Source: Alphaproteobacteria bacterium (GTDB taxonomy: Bacteria > Pseudomonadota > Alphaproteobacteria > Acetobacterales > Acetobacteraceae). Taken from it: a stretch of DNA of 55,653 nt. The DNA lies in contig VGDL01000021.1 in the NCBI GenBank assembly GCA_016869735.1, positions 1 through 55,653 of the forward strand, written 5' to 3'. Positions 33,936 through 49,727 of this stretch are shown piece by piece (position 1 is the stretch's first letter; each line of letters begins with the position of its first letter). The notes below the pieces were generated by a model. It worked only from the letters and a program-made list of their open reading frames with translations. It did not search any database and was not told the origin of the DNA. The position numbers were made by a program, and so were the translations under genes.

Positions 33936-35081
33936 TCAATCAGCGGCTTTTGCTGAGCGGATCGGGCCCAGAATTTCCTCATTATGCTGGCCGGGTGTTG
34001 CCAGATCATGGCGGAGCGGCAGCCTTTCCTGCCCGAATTGAAGCGGCAGCGCCGGCACCTTGGCGCGCCGCCCATCTGCAAGCGTCACTTCATGAAAGCC
34101 GCCGCTCGCGGCAAGATGCGCATCTTCGAACAAATCCCAGGGCTTGGCGATGCGGGAATAGGGCAGGCCGGCGCGGGCGCACATTTCCTCAAGCTCTGCG
34201 ACATTGCGCCTGATCAGCAGGGATTGCACCAGCGGTATCAGCGCCTCCCGCCGCTTGGCGCGTTCGGTATTGCTGCAATAATCGGGGTTGTTCAGCGCGG
34301 GTTCATTCAATTCGCGGATGAAGATTTCCCATTGGCGTTCGGTGACGACGCCGATGAAAATCTGTTCGCCATCGGCGGTATCGAACACATCATAAACGCC
34401 CCAGGCGCGGCGGCCCGCCGGCATGGGTTCCGGCGCCTTGCCCGTAATGGCTTGTTGCAGCATGGCGGTGGAAACCAGAAAGGCCGCGTTTTCAAACAAC
34501 CCCGCCTGCAAATGCTGCCCTCGGCCGGAGGCATCGCGCTGGCGGAGCGCGCTCAAAATCCCGATGGCGCCGAACATGCCGCCCATCATGTCATTCACCG
34601 GCGCCCCGGCGCGCAAGGGCCGGCCGGGCGGGCCGGTCATGTAAGCAAGGCCGGACTGCATCTGCACAACCTCATCCAAGGCTGTGCGGTTTTCATAAGG
34701 GCCGGGCAGATAGCCCTTGAGCGAGCAATAGATTAGCCGCGGATTGCGTGCCGAAAGCGCCTCATACCCCAGGCCCTTGGCGGCCAAGCCACCGGGGCGG
34801 AAATTCTCCACCAGCACATCGGCGGTATCAATCAGGCGCTTCAGCGCCTCAAGATCTGCCGCATCATCCGTATCGAGCGTGACGCTTTTCTTGTTGCGAC
34901 TGAAGGCAGCGAAGAAGCCGGTGCCGGATGCCACCAGATAGCGCGTGCGGTCGCCCTTGCCGGGGGGTTCGATCTTGATGACCTCGGCGCCCAGATCGGC
35001 CAGAACCAGGCCGCAGGTCGGCCCCATGACCATGTGGGAGAATTCAACAACGCGTATGCCGGCAAGCGGTAGCAGATCCAT
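33936..35081 (-). CDS. CaiB/BaiF (class III) CoA transferase
   Basis: A 381-aa family III CoA transferase that swaps CoA between carboxylic acids. The fold signature [42 protein letters not shown] opens the protein, and the catalytic aspartate is probably Asp164 ([10 protein letters not shown]). Substrates of this family include oxalate, carnitine, succinate, mesaconate and bile acids; sequence alone does not choose. It is first in the minus-strand group with the hexapeptide protein and PhyH, and is divergent (180 bp) from the importer operon at 35262. Confidence 0.93.
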
Positions 35082-35261: not shown

Positions 35262-36473
35262 ATGTCTCATTTCAGCCTTTCCCGGCGCCAGGCGCTGATG
35301 GCCGCGCCGGTGCTGCTCGCGGCACCCACCATTGCGCGGGCGCAGTCGCGCGCCATCAAGCTTGGCATCATCCAGCCCGTAACCGGCGCCTTGGCGCAGG
35401 ATGGCGAATATGGCCGCCTGGGCGCAGAGCTGGCCATTGCCGATATCAATGCCGGCGGCGGGATCAAGGCGCTGGGTGGCGCGCCGATTGAAATGGTGTT
35501 CGGCGATGCGCGCTCCACCCCCGATGGTGGTGTGGCCGAGGTTGAGAAAATGCAGGCCGAAGGCGTGCTCGCGATTGTGGGCGGCTTTGCAAGCCCGATT
35601 TGCCTTGCCGCATCGCAAGCCGCATCGCGTTATGACCTGCCTTATATTGTTGATGTCGGCGTGTCGGATCAGATCGTGTCTCGTGGGCTGGCCAATACCT
35701 TCCGCTTCGGGCCTGGCTTTGGCACCGTGACGGCAACCGCTTTGGATAATCTGGTCGCGATCAATGATGCCGCCGGCAAGCCTTCCCGTACGGCAGTGAT
35801 TGTGCATGAGGATGGGTTGTTCGGGTCCGGCATGGCGCGCCTGCTGAATGCGGAATTGCCCAAGCGCGGCTTTCAGGTGCTGGAGACGATTGCGCATCCC
35901 ACGCCATCGCGCGACATGTCTAATGTGGCGCTGCGGATCAGGGCGCTCAATCCCGATCTGATCATCCCATCATCCTATTACGCGGAATTCGTGCTGCTGT
36001 CGCAAACCTTGCAGCAGCGCCGCATTCGCCCGAAGGGGATTTATTGCATCCTGAATGGTGCGGCTTCCAATTTCCGTTTTGTGCGGGAATTCCCGGAAGC
36101 GGCTAATCTGGTAATGGATTGCAATCATTGGGCCGATCCGCGCAAGCCGAAAACCGCCGAATTGCGCCGGCGTGTGGAAGCGCAGGGGCGCTTCTGGCTT
36201 TACAATGTACCGCTGAATTATTCCGCCGTAATGCTGTTTGCCGATGCGCTGGAACGCGCGGGCCGGGCGGATCGTGGTGCGTTGATCCAAGCGCTGGCGG
36301 CAACTGGTGCTGGCTTTGATCGCCACATCATGCCCTATGGGCCGACGCAATTCGTCAATGGCCAAAACCAGGGCGGCAAGCCGGTGAATACGCAGGTGCA
36401 GAACGGCGATATCAAGGTGATCTTCCCGCGCGATTTTGCGGACGCCCAGCCGATCTATCCCGTCACCGGCTGA
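35262..36473 (+). CDS. LIV/HAAT-type ABC transporter substrate-binding protein
   Basis: A 403-aa periplasmic binding protein of the LivJ/AmiC (Peripla_BP_6) family. The N-terminus SLSRRQALMAAPVLLAAPTIARAQ has twin arginines before a hydrophobic stretch, suggesting Tat export. IKLGIIQPVTGALAQDGEYGRLGAELAIADINAGGGI is the family's first ligand-binding lobe. It opens a nine-gene operon in which every junction is an overlap or a gap of 3 bp or less. Relatives bind branched-chain amino acids, amides, urea or aromatics; downstream HyuAB suggests a cyclic amide, heterocycle or related compound. Confidence 0.93.
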   Translation: MSHFSLSRRQALMAAPVLLAAPTIARAQSRAIKLGIIQPVTGALAQDGEYGRLGAELAIADINAGGGIKALGGAPIEMVFGDARSTPDGGVAEVEKMQAEGVLAIVGGFASPICLAASQAASRYDLPYIVDVGVSDQIVSRGLANTFRFGPGFGTVTATALDNLVAINDAAGKPSRTAVIVHEDGLFGSGMARLLNAELPKRGFQVLETIAHPTPSRDMSNVALRIRALNPDLIIPSSYYAEFVLLSQTLQQRRIRPKGIYCILNGAASNFRFVREFPEAANLVMDCNHWADPRKPKTAELRRRVEAQGRFWLYNVPLNYSAVMLFADALERAGRADRGALIQALAATGAGFDRHIMPYGPTQFVNGQNQGGKPVNTQVQNGDIKVIFPRDFADAQPIYPVTG

Positions 36474-36474
36474 G

Positions 36475-37350
36475 ATGGGCTACCCGCCCGAAATATTGCT
36501 GGAGGCCGTGGCAAACGGCCTCCTGATGGGGGCCGTGTATGGGCTGGTGGCGCTGGGCCTCACGCTGGTTTACGGCGTGTTGCACATTATCAACTTCGCC
36601 CATGGTGCGTTGCTGACGCTGGCGATGTATGCGGCCTTTGTCGCGCATGGCGCCTTTGGGCTTGACCCCTATGCGGCGATGATCCCGCTGGCGGGCTTGT
36701 TCTTCGTGTTGGGCTATCTGGTACAGCGCTTGGTGATTGGGCCGGCCAGCCGTGGCGATGATTCCAATATGTTGCTGGTGACACTTGGGCTTTCGATCAT
36801 CATCGAAAACGCCATGTTGGCGATTTTTCGTTCGGATACCATGACGCTCCGCCTGCCCTATGCCATGTCCATGGTGGAACTTGGCGATGTTTTGTTGTCA
36901 GTGCCGCGCCTGATCGGCTTTGGCGTGACGCTGCTGCTGGCCGCCTTGCTGTTTGTGCTGATGACGCGCACCGATACGGGCCGCGCCATTCGGGCGGTCG
37001 CGAAGGAACGCACGGGCGCTGCCTTGGTTGGTATTGATGTCGCGCATATCTATGCCGTGACCTTTGGCATCGGCACGGCTTGTCTTGCCATCGCCGCCTG
37101 TCTTTTGCTGCCGTCCTTCTATGTCTCGCCACGTGTGGGCAATGCCTTTGTGCTGGTGGCCTTCACCATTGTGGTGCTGGGTGGCATGGGCAGCGTGACG
37201 GGGGCGCTGCTGGGCGGCTTGTTCATCGGTGTGGTGGAAAGCCTTTCTGGCCTCTATTTCGGTGATAGCCTTGGACAAATCGGGATTTTCCTGATTTTTA
37301 TCCTAGTGCTGCTGCTGCGCCCGACTGGGTTGTTCGGGGCGCGCGCATGA
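36475..37350 (+). CDS. LivH-type ABC transporter permease
   Basis: A 291-aa inner-membrane permease. The LivH signature GAVYGLVALGLTLVYGVLHIINFAHGAL lies near the N-terminus and AVAKERTGAALVGIDV in the cytoplasmic EAA-like loop. About eight hydrophobic helices are seen. The ATG is 1 bp after the binding-protein stop; its end overlaps the next permease by 4 bp. Confidence 0.94.
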   Translation: MGYPPEILLEAVANGLLMGAVYGLVALGLTLVYGVLHIINFAHGALLTLAMYAAFVAHGAFGLDPYAAMIPLAGLFFVLGYLVQRLVIGPASRGDDSNMLLVTLGLSIIIENAMLAIFRSDTMTLRLPYAMSMVELGDVLLSVPRLIGFGVTLLLAALLFVLMTRTDTGRAIRAVAKERTGAALVGIDVAHIYAVTFGIGTACLAIAACLLLPSFYVSPRVGNAFVLVAFTIVVLGGMGSVTGALLGGLFIGVVESLSGLYFGDSLGQIGIFLIFILVLLLRPTGLFGARA

Positions 37351-38306
37351 CTATTCGTGAGGCTTTGCCCATTTTGGGCTTTCTGGTCGTCGCCGTGCTG
37401 GTTTCGCTATTTGTGACCAGCAATGTGGTGCTGAATTTTCTGGTCTTTACGCTGATCCTGGCGATTGCCGCGCAGGGGTGGAATCTGCTTGGTGGCTATG
37501 GCGGGCAGTATTCCTTTGGTCATGCGGCGTTTTTCGGCATGGGCGCTTATGTCAGCGCCATTCTGCAACAACGCTTTGGCGTGAATGCCTATCCGGCGGT
37601 GGCCTTCGGCATGGTAGCCGCCGCGCTGCTTGGCTATGCGATTGGTGCCATGGTGTTTCGCGCTGGGCTGCGCGGTTCCTATTTTGCGCTGGTCACGCTT
37701 GCCTTTGCTGAGGTGCTGCGCATCCTTGCCAATGCAATCGAGATCACGGGCGGTGCTGCGGGTTTGCTGATCAGCCTCAATCTCGGCGCGGGTAATCTGC
37801 AATTTGCCAATCGGTCGAGCTTTTTGATTTTGGCAGCGGTATTGCTTGCGCTTGCCATGTTGATGACGCTGGCCGTGGAGAAAAGCCGGATCGGCGCGCA
37901 GCTTGTCGCGGTGCGGGAGAATGAGGCAGCGGCTGCCGCGCTTGGTGTGGATATTCTGGCGGTGAAGCTGCGTGCCATCAGCCTATCGGCGGGGCTTACT
38001 GGTGCGGCAGGGGCGCTTTATGCGCAGTATTTCCTCTATATTGATAGCAATATTGCTTTCGGCACCTGGATTTCAGTGGAAGCATTGCTCGCCCCAATTA
38101 TTGGTGGTGCGGGCACGGTATTCGGCCCGCTGATTGGTGCATTGATCCTGCAAGGGCTGAGCGAGGGCACGAAGATGCTGATCGGCAAAATCCCTGGTGT
38201 TGATCTGATCATCTTTGGTGCGCTGCTGATCCTGGTGGTGCGCTTTCCGCTGCATCGCATCCCGGGCGTCATCGCCGCGCGCTGGCGCGGCAAGGGGGCG
38301 CCATGA
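37347..38306 (+). CDS. LivM-type ABC transporter permease
   Basis: A 319-aa second permease with the LivM segments AAQGWNLLGGYGGQYSFGHAAFFGMGAYV and AVRENEAAAAALGVD (cytoplasmic coupling loop). It starts on the ATGA overlap with the LivH-type gene and ends on an ATGA overlap with the first ATPase. It pairs with the LivH-type subunit to form the membrane channel. Confidence 0.94.
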   Translation: MTIREALPILGFLVVAVLVSLFVTSNVVLNFLVFTLILAIAAQGWNLLGGYGGQYSFGHAAFFGMGAYVSAILQQRFGVNAYPAVAFGMVAAALLGYAIGAMVFRAGLRGSYFALVTLAFAEVLRILANAIEITGGAAGLLISLNLGAGNLQFANRSSFLILAAVLLALAMLMTLAVEKSRIGAQLVAVRENEAAAAALGVDILAVKLRAISLSAGLTGAAGALYAQYFLYIDSNIAFGTWISVEALLAPIIGGAGTVFGPLIGALILQGLSEGTKMLIGKIPGVDLIIFGALLILVVRFPLHRIPGVIAARWRGKGAP

Positions 38307-39064
38307 CAGGGCAAGGGCGGGACCCCGCTTTCCTCGCGGTGCGTGATCTCACCAAGCGCTTTGGCGGGCTGACGGCAGTGTCTGACGCGACCTTCGATGT
38401 GCGTGAAGGTTCGATAACCGGGCTGATCGGTCCGAATGGTGCGGGCAAGACGACGCTCTTTGCCATGATCGCCGGCTTTGAACAGCCAAGCGCTGGGCTC
38501 GTGTTGCTGGATGGCGAGGAAATCACCGGCCGCAAGCCGCATGATCTGGCCAAGCTTGGCCTGGCGCGAACCTTCCAGATTGTGCAGCCCTTCGCCGGGC
38601 TTTCCGTGCGCGAAAATATCGCGGTTGGAGCCTTTCTGCGCCTGGCAAAACGTCGTGATGCCTTGGCGTTGGCGGAAGAAGTCGGCCAACGCCTGGGCCT
38701 CGGTCCGCAACTTGATAAGCCAGCGGCAGCGCTGACGGTGGCGGGGCGGAAGCGCCTGGAAGTGGCGCGCGCATTGGCCACGCGCCCGCGCATATTATTG
38801 CTGGATGAGGTATTGGCGGGGCTTAACCCATCGGAACTCCGCGATTTCCTGCCGGTGCTGCAGGATATTCGCGCGGGTGGCGTCACCATCCTCATGATCG
38901 AACATGTCATGCAGGCGGTGATGAGCCTTTGCGAATATGTCCATGTGATCTCCGGCGGGCGTATCATTGCCTCGGGCGAGGCGGCCGAGGTGGTCGGCAA
39001 TCCCGCCGTGATTGAGGCCTATTTGGGCCATGGCGCCGCGCAAAGGTTGGCCGGCCATGCTTGA
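38303..39064 (+). CDS. LivG-type ABC transporter ATP-binding protein
   Basis: A 253-aa ATPase. Walker A is GPNGAGKTT, Walker B ILLLDEVLAGLNP, and the switch histidine is in LMIEHVMQAVM. The ABC signature is altered: the usual LSGGQ-type motif reads LTVAGRKRLEVARALA, as is common in LivG proteins. It overlaps the LivM-type gene by 4 bp and the LivF-type gene by 8 bp. Confidence 0.94.
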   Translation: MTGQGRDPAFLAVRDLTKRFGGLTAVSDATFDVREGSITGLIGPNGAGKTTLFAMIAGFEQPSAGLVLLDGEEITGRKPHDLAKLGLARTFQIVQPFAGLSVRENIAVGAFLRLAKRRDALALAEEVGQRLGLGPQLDKPAAALTVAGRKRLEVARALATRPRILLLDEVLAGLNPSELRDFLPVLQDIRAGGVTILMIEHVMQAVMSLCEYVHVISGGRIIASGEAAEVVGNPAVIEAYLGHGAAQRLAGHA

Positions 39065-39758
39065 AATCAAGGCGCTTGAAGCTGGCTATGGCGAAACCCT
39101 GATCCTGCGCGGCATTGATCTGAGTATCCCCGAAGGCGCTTTGGTTGCGGTGCTCGGCGCCAATGGTGCGGGCAAGACAACTTTGAACATGACCGTCAGC
39201 GGTGTGGTGCGCCCGCGCGGCGGGGAAATTCGTTTCGCGGGGCAGAGCCTCGCTGCGCTATCCCCGCCTGAGATTGTTTCACTTGGCCTGATCCATGTGC
39301 CGGAAGGGCGCAAGATTTTCCCGAATTTGAATGTGCGCGAAGTGCTGGAACTTGGTTCCTATCGCCGCGCGCGGACCAATCGTGCGCGTAATCTGGAACG
39401 CGTTTTTGGTATTTTCCCGCGCCTCAAGGAACGAACCCGCCAGGCCGCTGGCACGCTTTCAGGGGGCGAACAGCAAATGCTCGCCATCGGCCGCGGGCTG
39501 ATGGCGGAACCGAGGCTGCTGATCCTGGATGAACCATCGCTCGGCCTTTCGCCCTTGCTGGTCGAGGAAATGTTCACGCTGATCCGGCGCCTGCATGCGG
39601 ATGGGCTGACCATCATGCTGGTGGAACAGAATGTTGCGCAAAGCCTGGACGTGGCGGATCAGGCGCATGTCTTGGAAAATGGCGTGATCAGCTTGAGCGG
39701 CGCGGCGCGTGACATTGCCGCTGACCCCGAATTGCGCCGTAGCTATCTTGGATTGTGA
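39057..39758 (+). CDS. LivF-type ABC transporter ATP-binding protein
   Basis: A 233-aa second ATPase starting MLEIKALEAGYGETLILRG (ATG 39057). Walker A GANGAGKTT, signature LSGGEQQMLAIGRGLM, Walker B LLILDEPSLGLSP and the H-loop MLVEQN are intact. It completes the importer and ends 1 bp before the HyuB ATG, so importer and enzymes appear co-transcribed. Confidence 0.95.
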   Translation: MLEIKALEAGYGETLILRGIDLSIPEGALVAVLGANGAGKTTLNMTVSGVVRPRGGEIRFAGQSLAALSPPEIVSLGLIHVPEGRKIFPNLNVREVLELGSYRRARTNRARNLERVFGIFPRLKERTRQAAGTLSGGEQQMLAIGRGLMAEPRLLILDEPSLGLSPLLVEEMFTLIRRLHADGLTIMLVEQNVAQSLDVADQAHVLENGVISLSGAARDIAADPELRRSYLGL

Positions 39759-39759
39759 G

Positions 39760-41451
39760 ATGACTGAAATAGAAACCGTGCGTCTTGATGCCGTGACCCT
39801 GGCGGTGCTGAAGGGCCGGCTTGAACAAATTGCTGATGAGATGGATGCAACGCTCTATCGCAGTGCCTTCAACCCGATCATCGCCGAAGCGCGCGACGCC
39901 TGTCACGGCGTTTATGATGCGGTCACTGGCGATACGCTGGTGCAGGGCACCAAGGGCTTGCCGATTTTCGTCGGCGCCATGTCCTTTGCCGTGCGATATG
40001 TCATTCGCAAGGTGGCGGCGGAAGGCGGGCTGGAAGCCGGCGATACCTTCCTGTTCAATGATCCCTATGATGGCGGGACGCATTTGAATGATTTTCGCCT
40101 GGTGCGGCCGATTTTCCGCGCCGGCAAGCTATTCTGCTGGGTCGCAAGTGTTGGGCATTGGCTTGATATCGGCGGAAATGTGCCGGGCAATTACAATCCA
40201 CGCGCCACGGAAAGCCATCAAGAAGGCGTGCGTTTCCCGCCGGTAAAACTGATCCGCGCCGGGCAGATGCAGCAGGATATTCTGGATATTCTGGCGGCCA
40301 ATTCCCGTGTGCCGCAATCCAATTGGGGTGATTTGAATGGGCAGTTGAATGCGCTCGACCTCGGTGAAAAACGGCTGTTGGAATTACTGGATGATTATGG
40401 CGATGCGCGGATCGCCGCGGCCTTCGCGCAATTGGCGGATCGGGCTGAGGCGCTGATGCGCGCGGAAATCGCGGCCCTGCCCGATGGAAGCTACAGCTTT
40501 GATGATTTCCTGGATAATGACGGCGTGAAGGATGAGGCGCTGCGGATTGCGCTGGACCTGACGATTGAAGGTGATCGGCTAATTCTGGATATGTCGCGAT
40601 CCTCACCGCCTTGCGCCGGGCCGCTCAATATCTCCGTCGCGACCACGGTGGCGGCTTGTTATGTTGCGCTCAAGCACGCTTTCCCGGATGTGCCGGCCAA
40701 TGCGGGCGTGCTGCGCCCTGTGGAAGTGATTGCGCCACCAACTACGCTATTGGGTGCGGAGGCACCGCGACCCGTCGCTGGCTATACCGAAACCATCCTA
40801 CGCCTGATCGGCGTAATTTTCGGCGCACTCGGCAAGGCGCGCCCTGCCACCGCGACAGCCGCGCCTTTCGGGACCATCAATGCGCTGGCGCTGTCTGGCC
40901 AGCGGGAAAATGGCACGCTCTGGGTGATGTTTTCCTTCTTTGGTGGCGGGCTTGGCGGCAATCCGGCTTCCGATGGCTTGCATCACGCGAATAACCCGAT
41001 CTCAACGGCGACAATTCCGCCGGTGGAGATTCTGGAGGCAGCCTATCCAGTCATGTTCACGCAATGGGCGCTCCGCCCCGATAGCGGTGGCGCGGGCGAG
41101 CATCGCGGCGGCGTTGGCGCGATTTATGAGATCGAGGCGCTGGCGCCGGGCCGCACCGAAGTCGCCTTGCTGGGTGAACGCGGGCGTTTCGCGCCCTTTG
41201 GTGTGGCGGGCGGCGCTGATGGCGCGCTTAATCGCTTCACCTGGGGGGAGGCGGGCGAAACGCCGCCGATGGCAAGCAAGATTGTTGGTGTTTCCATCGG
41301 CCAAGGTCAACGCGTGCGGCTGGAAAGCCCGGGCGGTGGCGGTTGGGGCGATCCTGCGGCGCGGCCCATGGAGGCTATCGCGCGCGATGTCCGCTTGGGT
41401 TATGTCAGCGCCGAAGCGGCGCTGCGCGATTACGGAAGGCGCGCATCATGA
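39760..41451 (+). CDS. Hydantoinase B / 5-oxoprolinase-type subunit (HyuB)
   Basis: A 563-aa HyuB-family protein. Characteristic segments are DEMDATLYRSAFNPIIAEARDACHGVYDA near the start, FNDPYDGGTHLNDFRLV (metal/substrate region), and RPDSGGAGEHRGGVG near the end. With HyuA it forms ATP-dependent enzymes that open cyclic amides (N-methylhydantoin, 5-oxoproline, caprolactam) or carboxylate ketones (acetone/acetophenone carboxylase). It overlaps HyuA by 4 bp. Sequence alone does not distinguish these substrates. Confidence 0.92.
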   Translation: MTEIETVRLDAVTLAVLKGRLEQIADEMDATLYRSAFNPIIAEARDACHGVYDAVTGDTLVQGTKGLPIFVGAMSFAVRYVIRKVAAEGGLEAGDTFLFNDPYDGGTHLNDFRLVRPIFRAGKLFCWVASVGHWLDIGGNVPGNYNPRATESHQEGVRFPPVKLIRAGQMQQDILDILAANSRVPQSNWGDLNGQLNALDLGEKRLLELLDDYGDARIAAAFAQLADRAEALMRAEIAALPDGSYSFDDFLDNDGVKDEALRIALDLTIEGDRLILDMSRSSPPCAGPLNISVATTVAACYVALKHAFPDVPANAGVLRPVEVIAPPTTLLGAEAPRPVAGYTETILRLIGVIFGALGKARPATATAAPFGTINALALSGQRENGTLWVMFSFFGGGLGGNPASDGLHHANNPISTATIPPVEILEAAYPVMFTQWALRPDSGGAGEHRGGVGAIYEIEALAPGRTEVALLGERGRFAPFGVAGGADGALNRFTWGEAGETPPMASKIVGVSIGQGQRVRLESPGGGGWGDPAARPMEAIARDVRLGYVSAEAALRDYGRRAS

Positions 41452-43499
41452 GCGGCGCGATTGTCGGCGTTGATGTCGGTGGCACCTTCACCGATTTGTT
41501 CCTGTTTGATCCGGCCTCGGGGCGCTTTCAGACTGCGAAAGTACCAAGCCAGCGCGGTGATGAGGCTTCCGGTTTTCTCGCGGGCTTGCGAGCACTTGGT
41601 GGTGCTTCGGGCATGGCAGCGGTCGTGCATGGCACCACGGTTGGCACCAATGCGCTGCTCGAGCGAAAAGGTGCGAAGCTTGGCGTTATCACCACTGCGG
41701 GTTTTCGCGATGTCTTGGAAATGCGTCGCCGTGATCGCCGCCATACCTGGGGGCTTTGGGGCGAATTCGAACCAATCGCGGACCGCGATTTGCGCCTGGA
41801 AGTGCCGGAACGCTGCCTTGCAGATGGCAGCATCCACACACCAGTGGATATCGCGGCGGTGGAATCTGCCGCGCGGGAATTGCTGGCCGCAGGGGCGGAC
41901 GCCTGTGCCATTATCTTCATCAATGCCTATGCCAATCCCGCCAATGAACAGGCAGCGGCAGCAGCGGTGCGGCTCATTTGGCCCAATCCGCATGTTTCGG
42001 TTTCTTCTGAAATACTCCCGGAAATTCGCGAATTTGAACGGGCTTCGACAACGGCGCTCAACGCCTATTTGCAGCCTTTGGTCGCCGGCTATTTGGGTAA
42101 GTTGGAAGGCGCGCTGGCGGATGAAGGTTTCGGTGGGCGGTTTCATATTGTACAATCCAATGGCGGCATCATGTCCACCGCAACGGCGCGGCGCTTCCCG
42201 GCACGCACGGCACTGTCAGGCCCAGCGGCTGGTGTGATTGCGGCAGGCGCCATCGCCAAGGCCGCCGGCTTCAGCCATGTGATTACCTGTGATCTTGGCG
42301 GCACTTCCTTTGATGTGTCTTTAATTGCCGATGGGCAAATGGCCCTAGCCGCGCAGGCGACGATTGATTTCGGCCTGGTCATCCGCTCCCCCATGATTGA
42401 AATCACCACCATTGGCGCGGGTGGCGGTTCCATCGCGGCGGTGGATCGTGGTGGCTTGCTGCAAGTGGGGCCGGAAAGCGCGGGCAGCCGACCGGGGCCG
42501 GTCTGCTATGGGCAGGGCAATGACCGCCCGACGTTGACGGATGGGAATCTGGTGCTCGGGCGGATCAATGCTGCGCGGCCGATTGGCGGCGCGCTCACCA
42601 GCCTTGATGTGGATGCCGCGAAGGCCGCGATTGCACAGCATGTCGGCCTGCCTTTGGGGCTGGATGCCATGGCGGCGGCAGAAGCCATTCTGCGCGTGGC
42701 GAACGCAAAAATGGCCGGCGCCATCAGGCTTGTTTCCATCGAACGCGGGCTTGATCCGGCGCGTTTCGTCGCTCTCCCCTTCGGTGGCGGTGGCGCGCTG
42801 CATGTTGGTGCCTTGCTGACCGAGGTCGGCTTGAAAGCCGCTTTGGTGCCGCGCTTTCCGGGCGTCACTTCCGCGCTTGGCTGCATCATCGCTGATGTGC
42901 GGCATGACCAGGTGCGTACGCTTAATCTCGATTTGGATAGCCTCGATCCTGCCGCGCTGGATGCGCATCTGGTGCGCGAAGCAAGTGCGGCTGTGGCGGT
43001 GGTGCGCGATGCCGGCCTGCCGGTGGAGGCGATTGAAACGCTTTTCACGCTTGATATGCATTACGCTGGGCAGACGCATACCGTTGCTGTGCCTCTGCCC
43101 GTGACGGTGGCGGGCAATAGCACCGGCGTGACGCGAACGATTGTGCGGCAGGCCTTTGAAGCGGCCTATCAACGCGCCTTCAGTCGCTTGCTGCCGGGAT
43201 TGCCGGTCAGGATTGTCTCGCTCCGCAGTGCTGCGATTGGCCGCCGCCCGGCATTTGATCTGGCGGCACTTGCGCCTGGGCCTGACGCAAGCCTTGAAAC
43301 AGCAGCGCGTGGCGCGCGGCCGGTTTGGTTTGATGGCGCTTGGCATGAGGCACGCATTTTCGCGCGGCTTGAACTGCCGGTTGGTGCCGAAATTCCCGGC
43401 CCCGCCATTCTGGAACAACCCGATGCAACCGTGGTGGTGGACCCTGGCCTAGTGGCGCGGGTGGACCGCTTTGGCAATCTGATTATCGAAAGGGCGTGA
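41448..43499 (+). CDS. Hydantoinase A / 5-oxoprolinase-type subunit (HyuA)
   Basis: A 683-aa ATP-binding subunit with the actin/Hsp70-like phosphate loops IVGVDVGGTFTDLFLFD (residues ~5-21) and VITCDLGGTSFDVSLIADG in the middle. GAGGGSIAAVDRGGLLQVGPESAGSRPGP is also typical. It is thought to phosphorylate the cyclic amide or ketone so HyuB can complete hydrolysis or carboxylation. No third small subunit, as in acetone carboxylase, is present, which favours cyclic-amide hydrolase. The ATG lies in an ATGA overlap with HyuB. Confidence 0.93.
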   Translation: MSGAIVGVDVGGTFTDLFLFDPASGRFQTAKVPSQRGDEASGFLAGLRALGGASGMAAVVHGTTVGTNALLERKGAKLGVITTAGFRDVLEMRRRDRRHTWGLWGEFEPIADRDLRLEVPERCLADGSIHTPVDIAAVESAARELLAAGADACAIIFINAYANPANEQAAAAAVRLIWPNPHVSVSSEILPEIREFERASTTALNAYLQPLVAGYLGKLEGALADEGFGGRFHIVQSNGGIMSTATARRFPARTALSGPAAGVIAAGAIAKAAGFSHVITCDLGGTSFDVSLIADGQMALAAQATIDFGLVIRSPMIEITTIGAGGGSIAAVDRGGLLQVGPESAGSRPGPVCYGQGNDRPTLTDGNLVLGRINAARPIGGALTSLDVDAAKAAIAQHVGLPLGLDAMAAAEAILRVANAKMAGAIRLVSIERGLDPARFVALPFGGGGALHVGALLTEVGLKAALVPRFPGVTSALGCIIADVRHDQVRTLNLDLDSLDPAALDAHLVREASAAVAVVRDAGLPVEAIETLFTLDMHYAGQTHTVAVPLPVTVAGNSTGVTRTIVRQAFEAAYQRAFSRLLPGLPVRIVSLRSAAIGRRPAFDLAALAPGPDASLETAARGARPVWFDGAWHEARIFARLELPVGAEIPGPAILEQPDATVVVDPGLVARVDRFGNLIIERA

Positions 43500-44113
43500 T
43501 GATGGCCAGCGCCATTCCCATCAGTGAAACCGCTTTACTGCTCTGTGATTTGCAGAATGATTTCATCCATCCCGAGGGCGCCTATGCGCGCGGCGGGCAA
43601 GGTGATGTGACCATCGCAGCACTGCCCGCGCGGCTTGCGCCGCTTTCCGAAGCCATGCGCGCAAAAGGCGGCTGGATCGCTTCCACGCATTTCACGCTGG
43701 TGCCGGGCAAGGGGGGCGAGCCCTTCATTGCGGAGCATCTCAAACAAATGCGGCCCTTCCTGCGCAAGGGGGATTTTGCGCCGGCATCCTGGGGCCAGGC
43801 CTTGGTGGATGAATTGGCACCATCCGATCTGATGGTCGAGAAAATCGGCTATGACGCTTTCTGGAATTCGCGCCTGGAATGGGCCTTGCGCAAGGCAGGT
43901 ATTCGCGCGCTATTGGTGGCGGGCATTGTTACCAATGGCGGGGTTGCTTCCACCGTGCGCGGCGCGCATGTGCGCGAATTTGATGTGACGGTATTGGAAG
44001 ATGGCTGTGCGGCGTTTTCTGCCGCGGTACATCAGGCGGCGATTGAAGGGCTGCGCCCAGTGGCGCGCATCACCAGAATCGCGCAGGCTTTGCAGGAAAT
44101 AACGGGGAAGTAG
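43499..44113 (+). CDS. Isochorismatase-fold hydrolase lacking the catalytic cysteine
   Basis: A 204-aa Rossmann-like hydrolase of the isochorismatase superfamily. Asp17 (LLCDLQNDF) and Lys115 (VEKIGYDAF) of the usual Asp-Lys-Cys triad are present, as is the cis-peptide segment GIVTN. The nucleophile position is changed: typical cysteine hydrolases read TNVCV, here it reads TNGGV (Gly148). True isochorismatases such as PhzD also lack the cysteine and hydrolyse without a covalent intermediate. HyuAB and N-carbamoylsarcosine amidase work together in creatinine breakdown, so a decarbamoylase would fit, but the lost cysteine argues against it. ATG 43502 is an alternative start. Confidence 0.9.
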   Translation: MMASAIPISETALLLCDLQNDFIHPEGAYARGGQGDVTIAALPARLAPLSEAMRAKGGWIASTHFTLVPGKGGEPFIAEHLKQMRPFLRKGDFAPASWGQALVDELAPSDLMVEKIGYDAFWNSRLEWALRKAGIRALLVAGIVTNGGVASTVRGAHVREFDVTVLEDGCAAFSAAVHQAAIEGLRPVARITRIAQALQEITGK

Positions 44114-44116
44114 GTC

Positions 44117-46432
44117 ATGGATAACTTTGGCATTGGTCAGCCGGTACGGCGCAAGGAAGATGTGCGGCTGCTCACGGGGCGCGGCACCTATACGGATGAT
44201 ATGAACCGCCCTGGCCAGGCCCATGCGGTGGTGCTGCGTTCACCGCATGCCCATGCGCGCATCATCTCCATGGATGTCAGCGAAGCGCGTGCTGCGCCTG
44301 GCGTGGTGGCGGTACTGACCGGGCATGACGCGATGGCTGATGGCATTGGCGCGCTGCCGGTGCAGGTGGAAGTGCCCGGCAAGGACAAGCCGCTTTTCGC
44401 GCCAACGCGTCATATCCTGCAAACCGAACGCGTGCGCTATGTGGGGGACCCGGTCGCGTTGGTGGTCGCCGAAACCCGCGATCAGGCCATGGATGCGGCT
44501 GAGCTGATTCAGATTGATTACGAAACCCAGCCGAGCATCACGGAAACCGGCAAGGCGCTTGATGCCGACGCGCCGGTGATTTGGGAAGACCAGGGCAGCA
44601 ATCTTTGCGTGCATTGGGATAGTGGCCGCGCGGCGGAAGCGGATGCCGCCTTCACCAAGGCCGCGCGTATCGTCGCGGTTGACCTGGTGCAGAACCGCGT
44701 AGTGGGCAATCCGATGGAACCGCGTGTCGCCCTCGGTGATTGGGATGGGGAGAGGTGGACGCTGGTTTCGCCTTCTCAAGGTGCGGTCAAGGTTCGCGAC
44801 AATCTGGCGAAGCTGGTCTTCAAGGTGCCGCTCGAGAAAATTCGCGTCATTTCGCCCGATGTGGGTGGTGGCTTCGGCTTGCGCGGCAAGCTGTTTCCGG
44901 AAAGTGCCATGGTCTTGTGGGCGGCGCGCAAGCTTGGGCGGCCCGTGAAATGGCGCGCAGGCCGGACCGAGACTTTCCTGTCAGACCCACATGGGCGTGA
45001 TCATGTGACGCATGCCGAAATGGCCTTTGATGAAAACGCCAAGGCGATTGGCGTGCGTATTCGCACCTTGGCCGCCATGGGTGCCTATTTGCTGGATTTT
45101 GGTCCGCGTGTGCCCACCATGGCGGGTGGGCGCATCAATGGCACAGTTTATGACCTTCAGGCCTTGAATGTGCAGGTGCGCTGCGTGTTTACCAATACGG
45201 TGCCAACCGATGCCTATCGCGGTGCAGGCCGGCCGGAAACTGCTTATGTGCTGGAAAGATTATTCGACCAAGGCGCGGCGGCCTTCGGCATTGGGCGGGA
45301 GGAAATTCGCCGGCGGAATTACATCCGCCCGGATCAAATCCCCTACCGCAATGTCGCGGGCAATGTAATCGATTCCGGCCATTTCGCGGAAACCCAGGAT
45401 ATGGCGTTGAACTTGGCCGATTGGCAGGGCTTCGCCGCGCGGCGTGCGGAAGCGGCGAAGCAGGGCAAGCTGCGCGGTATCGGCCTTGGTTACTTCATTG
45501 AAGCCTCAGGCGGGCAGCCTTTTGAATGGGCGCGCGTGGCACTCACGCCTGAAGGTCGCGCCAAGCTTACGGTTGGCACCTTCAGCCATGGGCAGGGGCA
45601 TGAAACGGCCTTTGCGCAAATACTTTCCGAAAAGCTTGGGCTGCCTTTTGAATCGATTGATCTGGTGCAGGGCGATTCGGATGTCGTGCTGAAGGGCGGT
45701 GGCACGGGCGGGTCGCGTTCATCCCAGATGGGCGGTGTTGCCACCAGCCGCGCTGCTGCGTTGGTCATTGAAAAGGCCAAGCGCATCGCGGCGCATTTGT
45801 TGGAAGCAGGTGTGGCGGATATTGAATTCCTGAATGGCCGCTTCAGCGTGGCCGGGACGGATATCGCCACAAGCTGGCCCGCCATTATCGCCGCCGCGCA
45901 TGACCCGGCGCGCCTGCCGCCGGGTGAATCGCCTGGGCTTGACGAACAACTCACCTACACGCGCGACACGGAATGCAATTTCCCCAATGGCTGCCATGTC
46001 GCGGAGGTGGAGATTGATCCCACCACTGGCGAAGTTACCATCGCCAATTACGCGGCGGTGGATGATGTTGGCGTGCCGCTCAATCCCATGCTGGTGCATG
46101 GCCAATGCCATGGCGGCATCATGGCCGGCATTGGTCAGGCCATGCTGGAACATGCGCAATATGATCCTGAAAGCGGCCAATTCCTGACCGCGACTTTCCA
46201 GGATTACTGCATGCCGCGCGCGGGTGATGCGCCTTCCTTCAATCTTGATCTGAATGTGGTGCCTTGCCCATCCAATGATCTTGGCGTGAAGGGCGCGGGT
46301 GAGGGCGGCGCTTGCGGTGCGCCGCCTGCCATCATCTCAGCGGTCTGTGATGCGCTGGGTGTGGCGCATATTGATATGCCGATCACGCCAGAAGCGGTCT
46401 GGCGTGCGGTGCGGTCAAAACAGGCAGCGTAA
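44117..46432 (+). CDS. Xanthine dehydrogenase-family molybdenum hydroxylase large subunit (form II CoxL-like)
   Basis: A 771-aa molybdopterin-binding subunit: N-terminal a/b hammerhead domain (GQPVRRKEDVRLLTGRGTYTDD), then the two MoCo domains. The active-site loop reads AYRGAGR (366-372), the form II/other-hydroxylase pattern, not the AYRCSFR loop of true CO dehydrogenase. The catalytic Glu729 is in KGAGEGGACGAPP. The expected FAD (CoxM) and 2Fe-2S (CoxS) subunits are not adjacent; the operon ends here at a hairpin. It probably hydroxylates a heterocycle or aldehyde using partner subunits encoded elsewhere. Confidence 0.93.
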   Translation: MDNFGIGQPVRRKEDVRLLTGRGTYTDDMNRPGQAHAVVLRSPHAHARIISMDVSEARAAPGVVAVLTGHDAMADGIGALPVQVEVPGKDKPLFAPTRHILQTERVRYVGDPVALVVAETRDQAMDAAELIQIDYETQPSITETGKALDADAPVIWEDQGSNLCVHWDSGRAAEADAAFTKAARIVAVDLVQNRVVGNPMEPRVALGDWDGERWTLVSPSQGAVKVRDNLAKLVFKVPLEKIRVISPDVGGGFGLRGKLFPESAMVLWAARKLGRPVKWRAGRTETFLSDPHGRDHVTHAEMAFDENAKAIGVRIRTLAAMGAYLLDFGPRVPTMAGGRINGTVYDLQALNVQVRCVFTNTVPTDAYRGAGRPETAYVLERLFDQGAAAFGIGREEIRRRNYIRPDQIPYRNVAGNVIDSGHFAETQDMALNLADWQGFAARRAEAAKQGKLRGIGLGYFIEASGGQPFEWARVALTPEGRAKLTVGTFSHGQGHETAFAQILSEKLGLPFESIDLVQGDSDVVLKGGGTGGSRSSQMGGVATSRAAALVIEKAKRIAAHLLEAGVADIEFLNGRFSVAGTDIATSWPAIIAAAHDPARLPPGESPGLDEQLTYTRDTECNFPNGCHVAEVEIDPTTGEVTIANYAAVDDVGVPLNPMLVHGQCHGGIMAGIGQAMLEHAQYDPESGQFLTATFQDYCMPRAGDAPSFNLDLNVVPCPSNDLGVKGAGEGGACGAPPAIISAVCDALGVAHIDMPITPEAVWRAVRSKQAA

Positions 46433-46535: not shown

Positions 46536-48131
46536 TTAGCCAGCCGGCCGCACGCCCCAAGGATAGGGCATGCTGCCCTGGGCAAGCCCGGTAATGCTGC
46601 GCCGCCAGGCGCTGCGGATGCGGAATTGGCCAAGTGGGATGGTCGCAACATCATCCTGCGCCAGCTTATTGATCTCATCCGCCAGCGCCTTTTGCCGCGC
46701 GGCATCAGGCGCATCAAACCAAGCCTGGATGCGTTCCTGCATCACTGGGCTGCCATACCAGCCGAACCAACCTGTGGCACCCGGCCCTTTCACCAGCGAA
46801 CTCACCGCAGGGTTCAGGTAAGCAAGCGACGATCCATAGGTGTGGAAAATACTCCAGCCGCCACGATCAGCGGGTTCGGTGCGCACGCGCCGCTGCACCA
46901 CCGTGCCCCAATCGGTTTCCGCCAGTTCCACATTCATGCCAATGCGGCGCAGTCGGTCCGCGGTTACTTGCCCATGCGGGCCGATGAGCGGGAAATCGGT
47001 CGGGTTGATGATGACAACCTTCTCACCATTATAGCCACTCGCCTGCAGCGCGGCGCGCGCGCGATCCAGGCTGCGCGGCGGGGCATTGAGTTCTGATAGG
47101 TTTTCAACACCATAAGGCGTGCCGCAAGGGAATAGGCTTCGGCATTCCTGCCAAACACTGCGATCATCACCAAGCGTGGAACGCATGTAATCCGTTTGAT
47201 CCACGGCCAAAGCCACCGCTTGCCGCACGCGCAGATTATTGAAGGGCGCTTGCAGATGGTTCAAGCGCATGATGCTCATCAAGCCGGTTGGGTTCAGAAT
47301 ACCCACTTCTATATTGCGATTGCGCTGCAGCGTTGGCACCAGATCCGCCAAAGGCTGTTCCAGCCAATCAACCTCGCCCGATTGCAGCGCTGCTGCGGCG
47401 GTCGCGGGGTCCGGCAGGATATGCCATTCAATGCGCGGGAAATGCGCAACCTTGCCGCCGGACGCCCAATCTGATGCTTCATCGCGCGGGCGATAGCGGT
47501 CATTTCGCATATAAACCACGCGACTGCCGGAGACGAATTCATCGCGCATGAAGCGATAAGGGCCGCTGCCGATAACTTCGCTAATTTGCGTGCCAGAATC
47601 TGTCTTGGCCAAGCGTTCAGGCATGATGAAGGGCACGTTGGAATCGGGCTTCGCCAAGGCATCAAGCAAAAGCGGGAAGGGGCGTTTCAGGCGAATTTCC
47701 AGCGTGCGATCATCTGCCACGCGCCATTCATCCACCTGCGCGGCCAGGATTTGCCCAAAAGGATCACGCCGTGACCAACGCGCGAGAGATGCGGCGCAAT
47801 CAGCCGCGCGCACCGGCTCCCCATCATGGAAGAACAAGCCTTCACGCAGGCGGATGCGCCACACCCGGCCATCGGCAGAAACCTCATGCCCTGCCGCCAT
47901 TTGTGGGCGGGCGCGCTGCTGGCCATCCACGGCGTAAAGCGTGTCATAGACATGATAGCCGTGCATTTGCGTAACAATCGCACTGGTCCAGATAGGATCA
48001 AGCGCAGTCAGATTGGCCTGCGGCACAAAGCGCAGCGTGGCCGTGCGCGCGGGCTGCGCCAGCGAAGGCGCGGCGAAGCCCGAGGCCCCGGCAAGCGCCG
48101 CGGCCCCTTGCAGCAAATGACGACGTTTCAT
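46536..48131 (-). CDS. OppA/DppA-family (SBP_bac_5) ABC substrate-binding protein
   Basis: A 531-aa periplasmic receptor of the peptide/nickel/glutathione-binding class. The N-terminus MKRRHLLQGAAALAGASGFAAPSLAQ has twin arginines and a likely Tat signal. LTALDPIWTSAIVTQMHGYHVYDTLYAVDG and GLFFHDGEPVRAADCAASLARW are class-5 SBP landmarks. No permease or ATPase genes are beside it. It lies 21 bp after the gamma-glutamyltransferase stop on the same strand, so both are probably co-expressed and could handle a gamma-glutamyl compound. Confidence 0.92.
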   Translation of the reverse strand: MKRRHLLQGAAALAGASGFAAPSLAQPARTATLRFVPQANLTALDPIWTSAIVTQMHGYHVYDTLYAVDGQQRARPQMAAGHEVSADGRVWRIRLREGLFFHDGEPVRAADCAASLARWSRRDPFGQILAAQVDEWRVADDRTLEIRLKRPFPLLLDALAKPDSNVPFIMPERLAKTDSGTQISEVIGSGPYRFMRDEFVSGSRVVYMRNDRYRPRDEASDWASGGKVAHFPRIEWHILPDPATAAAALQSGEVDWLEQPLADLVPTLQRNRNIEVGILNPTGLMSIMRLNHLQAPFNNLRVRQAVALAVDQTDYMRSTLGDDRSVWQECRSLFPCGTPYGVENLSELNAPPRSLDRARAALQASGYNGEKVVIINPTDFPLIGPHGQVTADRLRRIGMNVELAETDWGTVVQRRVRTEPADRGGWSIFHTYGSSLAYLNPAVSSLVKGPGATGWFGWYGSPVMQERIQAWFDAPDAARQKALADEINKLAQDDVATIPLGQFRIRSAWRRSITGLAQGSMPYPWGVRPAG

Positions 48132-48152
48132 GGGCGTTTCCTTTGTTGTGGT

Positions 48153-49727
48153 TTAGGCTTCGGCGATTGCCGCACTCCAGGGGCTCATCACATCGGTAAT
48201 GCCGGTGCGCAGCCCATCCGCGCCAATGCGGATCAGATTCGGGCAGGCGAAATTCACCGGCAGCACCGCGTGTTCGACTTCAGTCACCTCATCCTCGGCG
48301 GCCAGCGCGGCCAGGGTTTCCGCACCCAGCCGGATATCGGCGGTGACACCCTCAGGCGCTGAGACATCCAAGCGCGGATGATGCGCCGCCTGTTCCGGTT
48401 CCATGCCGAAATCGGCAATGAAGGACAGCATTTGGAAGACCGAGGCCATGATGCGCCGCCCGCCGGAAGCACCCGTGGCAAGCACGGGCTTGTCGCCCTC
48501 AGCAGCAATAACGGGGCACATATTGGTCAGCGGCCTTTTGCCCGGTGCCAGCGCATTGGCCGCTTCCGGACGAGGGTCGAACCACATGACGCCGTTATTC
48601 ATCAGCACGCCTGATTTCGGCAGCACCACCCGGCTACCCATGCTGGAAAGCAGCGTCGTGGTCATGGCGACCATCATGCCGTTCTTGTCAGCGACCGTCA
48701 GATGGGTGGTGCAGGATTCGGCTGCTTTCGGTTCCGCATCCCCAAGCCCGGCAAGGCGTTCCGCATAAGCCGCGCGCATCACGCGCGCCAAATGCGCATA
48801 CCAGGCGGCGGAGGGCGCCTTGCCGGAGAAATCGGCACCCTTCATGCCTTCCAGCACGCGCATCAGCGTGGGCGCCGCCGTCAGCCCATTGGCCAGGAAC
48901 AGCCGCTTGCCGCGCCAGGCGGCTTCCAGCGCGGGCAGCACGCGCGCCTTGCAATTGGCAAGATCCTCGGCGCTGACAAAGGCGCCCATGTCCTTGCAAT
49001 CGGCAGCGATGGCGGCGGCAATATCGCCCGTGTAGAAATCAGCCAGCCCTGCATGCGCCAGGCGTTCCAACGTGTCGGCCAGATTGCCCTGTTGGAAGAA
49101 GCCCGGTGAGCCCTGATACGGCGCCACCGGCGGCAGCCCGCCCGGCAGATAGATGCGCGCCGATTCCGGATAAAGCTTCAGCACCGATGCGGAATTGGCC
49201 ACTTTCAGCGTGGTGAACCAATCCTGCGCCAATCCGCGTTTCGCAAGCGCCACCGCCGGCGCCAGCACATCCTTGATCGGCATGCGGCCATGGCGGGCAT
49301 GCAATTCCATATAGCCCGCAACCGCCGAGGGGATCGCGAAGGAAAGTGGGCCATGGACATTGCGGTCTTCCAAGACCTCTGGCCAGGTGAACAAATCCGC
49401 CTTCATCTTGCCGGTCATGGGGAAGGCGGAAGGCTTCAAGCCGCGCGGGGAAACCGGGCCGAAATCAAAGGTCTCGGCGCCGCTGCCCGGCGACATGACT
49501 TGCGCGAAGCCAATACCGCCCAAGCCGCTATTCCAGGGCTCCAGCGTCGCCAGCGCAAAGGCCGTGGCCACCGCCGCATCTGCCGCCGTGCCGCCGGCTT
49601 CCAGAATCGCGACCCCGGCCTCGGCGGCGCCGCGCGCCTGGGAAGCGACCATGCCCTTGCGGCCAGAGGCTGCGGGCTTCGTGACGTGCCAATGCTGGGA
49701 AGTGTGACGCGGCGGGGTCCAGGCCAT
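48153..49727 (-). CDS. Gamma-glutamyltransferase family protein
   Basis: A 524-aa Ntn-hydrolase-like protein. It matures by self-cleavage before a threonine; here Thr340 (CTTHLTVAD) is the expected nucleophile. Substrate-binding features include LEPWNSGLGGIGF near residue 62 and GASGGRRIM in the small subunit. No signal peptide is seen, unlike classical periplasmic GGT, so this resembles cytoplasmic YwrD-like members. It cleaves or transfers gamma-glutamyl groups, or acts on related amides. It is upstream of the OppA-like receptor and divergent (129 bp) from malate synthase. Confidence 0.9.
   Translation of the reverse strand: MAWTPPRHTSQHWHVTKPAASGRKGMVASQARGAAEAGVAILEAGGTAADAAVATAFALATLEPWNSGLGGIGFAQVMSPGSGAETFDFGPVSPRGLKPSAFPMTGKMKADLFTWPEVLEDRNVHGPLSFAIPSAVAGYMELHARHGRMPIKDVLAPAVALAKRGLAQDWFTTLKVANSASVLKLYPESARIYLPGGLPPVAPYQGSPGFFQQGNLADTLERLAHAGLADFYTGDIAAAIAADCKDMGAFVSAEDLANCKARVLPALEAAWRGKRLFLANGLTAAPTLMRVLEGMKGADFSGKAPSAAWYAHLARVMRAAYAERLAGLGDAEPKAAESCTTHLTVADKNGMMVAMTTTLLSSMGSRVVLPKSGVLMNNGVMWFDPRPEAANALAPGKRPLTNMCPVIAAEGDKPVLATGASGGRRIMASVFQMLSFIADFGMEPEQAAHHPRLDVSAPEGVTADIRLGAETLAALAAEDEVTEVEHAVLPVNFACPNLIRIGADGLRTGITDVMSPWSAAIAEA

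Follow-up and report, generated by a model that had tools for sequence, protein, structure and literature searches.

Ureide hydrolases of the isochorismatase fold use a cysteine nucleophile. Caprolactamase, an ATP-dependent cyclic amidohydrolase with the subunits CapA and CapB, is described in a report whose consulted sections give the standard free energy of caprolactam hydrolysis, 23 kJ/mol, as the reason for ATP use (PMC8453981). According to the same sections, exchange of CapA D11 or D295 reduces caprolactamase activity, and exchange of CapB D41, H99, H124, or a fourth metal ligand (D101 in the abstract, D102 in the text) abolishes it (PMC8453981). Here, we describe an operon that encodes relatives of both enzyme types, with the hydrolase lacking its cysteine, in an Alphaproteobacteria bacterium of the Acetobacteraceae (GenBank assembly GCA_016869735.1). 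The stretch analyzed, hereafter the window, is the 55,653 nucleotides of contig VGDL01000021.1 (C21) in a 3.25 Mb genome (G000); the nearest relatives of the operon are in metagenome-assembled genomes, labeled mostly Roseomonas or Asaia. The operon is widely conserved and probably serves a variant of ATP-dependent cyclic-amide catabolism, undescribed as far as a full-text search of module-name combinations shows; that search found no paper on it but covered open-licence papers only, which makes it weak evidence of novelty. Among the titles listed by further literature searches, none dealt with the operon.

The nine genes lie on the plus strand between positions 35262 and 46432, where the first-pass annotation had placed them, and Pfam matches confirmed the families it had named. 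A LIV-type periplasmic binding protein of 403 amino acids (35262–36473; PF13458, Peripla_BP_6, 155 bits) is followed by LivH- and LivM-type permeases (36475–37350 and 37347–38306; both PF02653, BPD_transp_2) and by LivG- and LivF-type ATPases (38303–39064, PF00005, ABC_tran, and PF12399; 39057–39758, PF00005, with NCBIfam LivF the nearest model, below its cut-off), which by Pfam make up a complete LIV/HAAT importer. Next come the HyuB-type metal subunit of an ATP-dependent cyclic amidohydrolase (39760–41451; PF02538, Hydantoinase_B, 571 bits), the HyuA-type ATP-binding subunit (41448–43499; PF05378, PF01968, and PF19278, the N, core, and C parts of Hydantoinase_A), a cysteine-less isochorismatase-fold hydrolase (43496–44113; Pfam Isochorismatase), and an accessory, orphan molybdopterin large subunit (44117–46432; PF01315, Ald_Xan_dh_C; PF02738, MoCoBD_1; PF20256, MoCoBD_2). 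Packing is as tight as had been claimed. The LivH gene starts 1 bp after the receptor gene, the LivH/LivM and LivM/LivG genes overlap by 4 bp and LivG/LivF by 8 bp, and HyuB follows LivF by 1 bp if it starts at the ATG at 39760, or by 7 bp if it starts at the second ATG at 39766, from which HyuB residues are numbered here. HyuB/HyuA and HyuA/hydrolase overlap by 4 bp each, and the molybdenum gene begins 3 bp after the hydrolase gene. The view that importer, ATP-dependent cyclic-amide enzyme, and isochorismatase-fold protein form one block resembling a transcription unit was supported. None of the nine proteins reached an NCBIfam cut-off among the models listed (for the two ATPases, the best 25 of 186 and of 187), so these models assign no specific function to them.

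The conserved unit consists of eight genes, namely the LIV importer, HyuB, HyuA, and the cysteine-less hydrolase, and the molybdenum subunit is optional. Relatives of the hydrolase were drawn from the GTDB collection; of the best 80 of 81, all except L117 are orthologs (79 loci, >45% identity). Presence counts across the 79 loci are lower bounds, as many contigs are short, and genes in loci without annotation were labeled by tblastn. HyuA lies immediately upstream of the hydrolase in 75 of the 79 loci, and HyuB-HyuA-hydrolase is contiguous in 70; six of the other nine end at contig edges (L042, L043, L054, L082, L084, and L090) and three are real exceptions (L071, L072, and L056). This order was found in Acetobacteraceae, Azospirillum, Rhizobiales, Rhodobacterales, and Burkholderiales records, and its recurrence across these groups indicates that the arrangement is more than chance. 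In a draw of 150 genomes of the family, HyuA adjoins the hydrolase in 22 of the 29 best loci besides the window's own. A gene-order search in other genomes had been the first-pass annotation's suggested check; the order recurs, and an arrangement conserved in no relative, which it had named as refutation, is not what we found. All nine window genes occur in 21 of the 79 loci, with PrpD-like and flavoprotein genes inserted in nine of these (L058–L066), which leaves the exact nine-gene block in 12; eleven of them are near-identical to the window, and the one from Roseomonas rubea (L055) is 71–84% identical. An orthologous LIV set is present in at least 32 of the 79 loci and a TRAP set in at least 27.

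The hydrolase had been described as lacking the family cysteine, and this proved correct: TNGGV at residues 146–150 aligns with the cysteine region of RutB and triuret hydrolase, whose cysteine at that position we take to be the nucleophile. Gly149 occupies the cysteine position in 116 of 118 aligned rows, with alanine in the other two (L036 and L037), while Asp18 is kept in 117 rows (one gap) and Lys116 in all 118. Loci from our two collections overlap (L071 and L167 look like one record), so counts are given per collection, and the rows of this alignment and of those for HyuA and HyuB are not all independent. Among 30 diverse hydrolases, Asp18 and Lys116 are kept, H81, R86, and H158 are invariant, and R32 is found in at least 90%. 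The cysteine loss is a conserved trait of a clade, and neither sequencing error nor gene decay accounts for it. The protein thus has the fold and the catalytic aspartate and lysine of the family without its nucleophilic cysteine, and its structure model has a pLDDT of 89.6. In both sequence and fold, its kin are RutB and the biuret and triuret hydrolases first, then maleamate amidases, with isochorismatases below both. Annotated records label the protein a "cysteine hydrolase," a label that the sequence does not bear out. The motif reads TNTAV, with alanine at the cysteine position, in hydrolase copies of L036, L037, and L169 (278–7791), and the L169 copy stands behind genes that, read by eye, resemble a 2-aminoethylphosphonate or phosphonoacetate operon. 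An HpcH/HpaI-type aldolase gene directly precedes the cysteine-less hydrolase in L166 (3038–7557), L071 (9037–9984), and L072 (2–610), and L166 also has a bestrophin-like protein encoded in line with it, as well as a putative short-chain dehydrogenase.

The ATP-site motifs of HyuA match those of CapA, with D9 in DVGGT, D282 in DLGGT, and GSRPGP at 346; D9 is present in 81 of 83 rows (two gaps), and D282 and GxxPGP at 346 are present in all 83. HyuB residues D44, H106, D109, and H131 align with the Asp-His-Asp-His metal ligands of CapB and are invariant in 80 of 80 rows. Of the residues probed by exchange in caprolactamase, CapA D11 and D295 correspond to HyuA D9 and D282, and CapB D41, H99, H124, and the fourth ligand to HyuB D44, H106, H131, and D109. 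G000 (3.25 Mb) has nine Hydantoinase_B genes (contigs C12, C21, C8, C57 with two, C76, C10, C19, and C11), and the relatives G006, G150, and G151 have 14, 12, and 13 HyuA-like places, respectively.

The receptor's best solved relative is 8wch (136 bits), called a probable Leu/Ile/Val-binding protein, and a literature search found no paper naming this structure. Against the branched-chain receptor model NF011933, the receptor scores 70 bits, where 477 are asked.

The first-pass annotation had treated a form-II molybdenum hydroxylase as an integral fourth module, and this part was not supported. A large subunit with molybdenum cofactor domains is present, with the loop AYRGAGR at residues 366–372, which presumably marks form II, but its FAD and 2Fe-2S subunits are not encoded alongside. 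A Pfam search of G000 found neither an FAD subunit (PF00941) nor a 2Fe-2S subunit (PF01799) on contig C21, so the protein is an orphan large subunit. In G000 as a whole, PF00941 occurs at three places (C26, C1, and C55) and PF01799 (Fer2_2) at five (C26, C1, C14, C41, and C55), and the large-subunit domain PF20256 occurs at 12 places on contigs C55, C26, C59, C21, C15, C41, C17, C1, and C14; several orphan large subunits in this genome may share partner subunits. The gene is present in 26 of the 79 loci, in records labeled Roseomonas, Falsiroseomonas, Asaia, Acetobacteraceae, or plainly Rhodospirillales or Alphaproteobacteria, and several of the 53 loci without it are short contig pieces. The same-genus genome G104 carries the eight-gene unit at 73–86% identity with no molybdenum gene within 8.6 kb downstream, and G127 has HyuB, HyuA, the hydrolase, and the molybdenum gene with no importer within 6.7 kb upstream. 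Operon copies of the subunit are 69–84% identical among L055, L058–L066, and the window, and at most 49% identical to paralogs in the window's genome. We rejected the molybdenum enzyme as a defining module, as it is both optional and incomplete; what remains of the four-module pathway is a core of eight genes, with the orphan molybdenum subunit as an option.

Varying sets of companion genes accompany the core in Azospirillum, Roseobacters, Rhizobiales, and Burkholderiales, and the operon of Azospirillum brasilense Sp7 (L180) has the complete set. By Pfam, these include FAD_binding_2, PEP_mutase, Aconitase and Aconitase_C, MmgE_PrpD, and Tautomerase with SnoaL_2, along with GntR-UTRA regulators and Asp/Glu/hydantoin-racemase proteins. 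The companion lyase is nearest PrpB, the methylisocitrate lyase (281.7 bits, cut-off 354.4), and the companion flavoprotein, among the best 25 of 69 families, is nearest flavocytochrome c and the tricarballylate dehydrogenase TcuA, below the cut-offs; further relatives are methylisocitrate lyases for the former and fumarate reductases for the latter. In the 79 loci, we counted the flavoprotein in 49, the lyase in 47, LeuC in 37, the tautomerase in 29, PrpD in 12, and the racemase in three. Across the 53 loci without the molybdenum gene, the PrpB-like lyase was present in 47, the fumarate-reductase-like flavoprotein in 40, and LeuC in 37, and none of the 26 loci with the molybdenum subunit had the lyase. 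The companions suggest that a di- or tricarboxylate skeleton is left once the nitrogen is gone, and the set is a poor match for plain routes of creatinine, 5-oxoproline, or caprolactam breakdown. Judged by the named families, enzymes that dehydrogenate succinate-like acids, hydrate cis-alkene diacids, and cleave alkylmalates would together make a chemically consistent ending for the breakdown of a substituted succinate or maleate. Further genes were seen near the core. A small fusion of tautomerase and SnoaL-like domains is encoded in L120 (7681–8247) and L122 (11631–12122), with both domains over the cut-off in L120 and below it in L122, and arylmalonate-decarboxylase-family genes (PF17645) with FAD_binding_3 monooxygenases lie near the operon in L055 (13942–15994) and L115 (15027–17798). 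Downstream of the operon of Sulfitobacter S190 (L127, 15554–22588) lies a separate cluster with a fused molybdenum hydroxylase, its subunit M, and a gene annotated as 6-hydroxynicotinate reductase; relatives of this cluster were seen in no other tblastn-labeled locus.

On balance, we think it somewhat more likely than not that the operon serves the catabolism of a small cyclic amide, an imide or lactam that is probably carboxylated, to a substituted maleate or succinate, with hydration and cleavage to follow. The LIV-type importer, judged by its family, would take up the cyclic amide; HyuA would spend ATP to phosphorylate the ring carbonyl and the HyuB metal site would hydrolyze it, opening the ring, as predicted from the catalytic residues held in common with caprolactamase. 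The isochorismatase-fold protein would complete nitrogen removal through Asp18 and Lys116, with no protein nucleophile. Most simply, the substrate would provide its own, e.g. a cis carboxyl beside the amide. In most loci without the molybdenum gene, the carbon skeleton would then be dehydrogenated by the flavoprotein, hydrated by LeuCD, and cleaved by the PrpB-like lyase, reactions we infer for genes whose linkage is observed; in the window's organism, paralogs or other enzymes would perform these steps. The molybdenum large subunit would be a lineage-specific extra that borrows FAD and FeS subunits and may widen the range by oxidizing a related ring or an aldehyde.

Several observations weigh against this route. 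The hydrolase adjoins an aldolase gene apart from HyuAB in two loci: in L071, HyuBA is nearby on the opposite strand, and in L072, it is elsewhere in the genome (HyuA 67%). Roseomonas sp. CECT 9278 (L056) has importer and hydrolase without HyuBA, its genome's best HyuA being 48% identical, and G006 has LeuC, LeuD, lyase, and then hydrolase without an orthologous HyuAB (best HyuA 51%). The hydrolase and HyuAB thus need not act on consecutive intermediates. The leanest hydrolase setting that we saw is of this kind, with LeuC, LeuD, a PrpB-like lyase, and the cysteine-less hydrolase in a row and no HyuAB (L168, 4959–8447). The window's genome contains no operon-type flavoprotein (best 29%) and no operon-type lyase (best 44%), which leaves the evidence for the downstream half with other lineages; it does contain five LeuC matches, three of them strong (54–61%), one of which lies in a putative leuCDB-like run. 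The Azospirillum LeuC and LeuD score 670 bits (cut-off 560) and 175 bits (cut-off 116) with 3-isopropylmalate dehydratase models and, being above the leucine-pathway cut-offs, may simply serve that pathway. Promoter and terminator scans of the locus did no better than shuffles (three promoters found against 4.3 expected, 15 terminators against 15.2). The main weight on this side comes from sarcosine-oxidase neighbors together with the hydrolase's kinship to ureide hydrolases, which favor a ureide or N-methyl route.

Under that alternative, HyuAB would open a hydantoin-like ring, giving an N-carbamoyl acid from which the isochorismatase-fold enzyme would remove the carbamoyl group, as in creatinine and N-methylhydantoin breakdown. 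The hydrolase's closest solved relatives are indeed ureide hydrolases (triuret hydrolase, RutB, and biuret hydrolase), and N-methylhydantoinase is the best solved match of HyuA (393 bits versus 375 for CapA). In L166, soxB (sarcosine-oxidase beta, 651 bits, cut-off 529) stands in the same gene run as the hydrolase, Tistrella carries a sarcosine oxidase operon downstream, on the opposite strand, and in Neorhizobium the genes that follow are of the racemase family PF01177, to which hydantoin racemase belongs. However, the glycine found in 116 of 118 rows stands exactly where the ureide enzymes of this fold have their catalytic cysteine, and a ureide route has no need of a PrpB-like lyase or a fumarate-reductase-like flavoprotein; we consider it unlikely. 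Structures 6xj4 and 6xjm are, by title, C162S and C169S variants with ligand bound. The route sketched in the first-pass annotation, in which hydroxylation by the molybdenum enzyme turns an N-heteroaromatic into a pyridone-like lactam, HyuAB opens this to an enamine, and the cysteine-less enzyme cleaves the C–N bond by acid catalysis, like isochorismatase on its enol ether, seems quite unlikely. The best solved match of the molybdenum subunit is CoxL, the CO-dehydrogenase large chain (518 bits); its gene is not near the operon in the same-genus G104, was not seen in 53 of 79 loci (several of them short), and has no partner subunits on the contig. The low rank of isochorismatases among the hydrolase's relatives also argues against such chemistry. 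Finally, the protein may be a binding, regulatory, or vestigial partner of HyuAB instead of a pathway enzyme, given that the family nucleophile is missing and that it is sometimes encoded apart from HyuAB. We regard this as very unlikely, since the charged residues kept in 30 diverse members fit catalysis and a vestige would drift.

Within the favored cyclic-amide route, one candidate substrate class deserves mention, even though we judge it a rather unlikely answer. The operon family could degrade monopyrrole imides derived from tetrapyrroles, starting with hematinic acid and including its dihydro form, which the saturated chlorophyll ring would supply. HyuAB would then use ATP to open a dialkylated imide whose ring closure is otherwise favored, and the half-amide, 2-methyl-3-(2-carboxyethyl)maleamate, would be hydrolyzed by its own cis carboxyl with acid help only from Asp18 and Lys116, an arrangement that would account for the missing cysteine. 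The flavoprotein would dehydrogenate the saturated form, as TcuA does with tricarballylate, LeuCD would hydrate the product, and the PrpB-like lyase would yield pyruvate and glutarate. According to the consulted parts of one report, senescent leaves and lake sediments have yielded maleimides and hematinic acid, hematinic acid in leaves reaches amounts similar to propentdyopents, with maleimides not detected there, and ring D is saturated in chlorophylls other than Chl c (PMC7318184). A saturated ring D would yield the dihydro form of hematinic acid. Substituted maleic half-amides break down by intramolecular cyclization, a reaction that speeds up in acid and when the double bond carries more substituents; the portion of PMC5342538 that we draw on says much the same of citraconic amide. 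The carboxyl group would assist the dihydro form less.

Two sets of flanking genes were considered as parts of the system and set aside. The divergent gene for a family III CoA-transferase (33936–35081) was not found in the 1.7 kb that precede the receptor gene in the 12 exact-block loci, and the opposite-strand genes at 46536–49727 are neighbors only in near-identical relatives, and not in every one. Read by eye, the latter encode a putative dipeptide-type receptor and a gamma-glutamyltransferase.

That such a cassette is conserved among Proteobacteria of soil and sea suggests that its natural substrate is widespread and has no mapped breakdown route, and the conserved loss of the nucleophile raises the enzymological question of how an amidase fold would catalyze without its cysteine. 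If the hematinic acid reading were true, the operon would provide, to our knowledge, the first genetically defined route by which the final fragments of chlorophyll and heme are degraded.

Among the closest known systems, the anaerobic indoleacetate lactamase IaaCE, a Hyu-type lactamase, is alike by description; it is paired with a molybdenum hydroxylase, and we know of no isochorismatase-fold partner for it. In the sections consulted, it is named IaaCE (PMC8453981) and 2-oxoindoleacetyl-CoA gamma-lactamase (PMC5214803). Methylcitrate-type endings (TcuA/fumarate reductase, LeuCD/aconitase, and PrpB) share their families with the genes beside the core in other lineages, but the flavoprotein and lyase fall below the listed cut-offs, with LeuC and LeuD above them, and none is in the window's operon. 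The creatinine/N-methylhydantoin pathway uses HyuAB followed by the Cys-dependent N-carbamoylsarcosine amidohydrolase, whereas the operon's hydrolase has no cysteine. RutB, BiuH, TrtA, and the maleamate amidases NicF and Ami likewise carry the cysteine where the operon's hydrolase has glycine in its conserved TNGGV, and the isochorismatases PhzD and VibB, which are Cys-less members of the fold, score lower than the amidases in both sequence and fold. CapAB and N-methylhydantoinase/5-oxoprolinase are homologous to the operon's enzyme in both subunits over nearly full length, with the ATP motifs and the D-H-D-H metal site conserved. We nevertheless rejected caprolactamase as the identity of HyuAB, since the operon's proteins score 486 (alpha) and 311 (beta) bits with NCBIfam caprolactamase models that need 1000, and the substrate pocket does not fit. 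The vicinal disulfide C410–C411 of the caprolactamase pocket (pocket as given in the sections consulted of PMC8453981) corresponds to S413–T414, and its T336 and L38 correspond to invariant glutamates in the operon family. The gene order here is B-A, where the consulted part of PMC5214803 calls A-B conserved for hydantoinases. By its conserved ATP and metal-site residues, HyuAB would belong with the ATP-dependent cyclic amidohydrolases (HyuAB/CapAB/OplAB), and ring opening is its predicted reaction.

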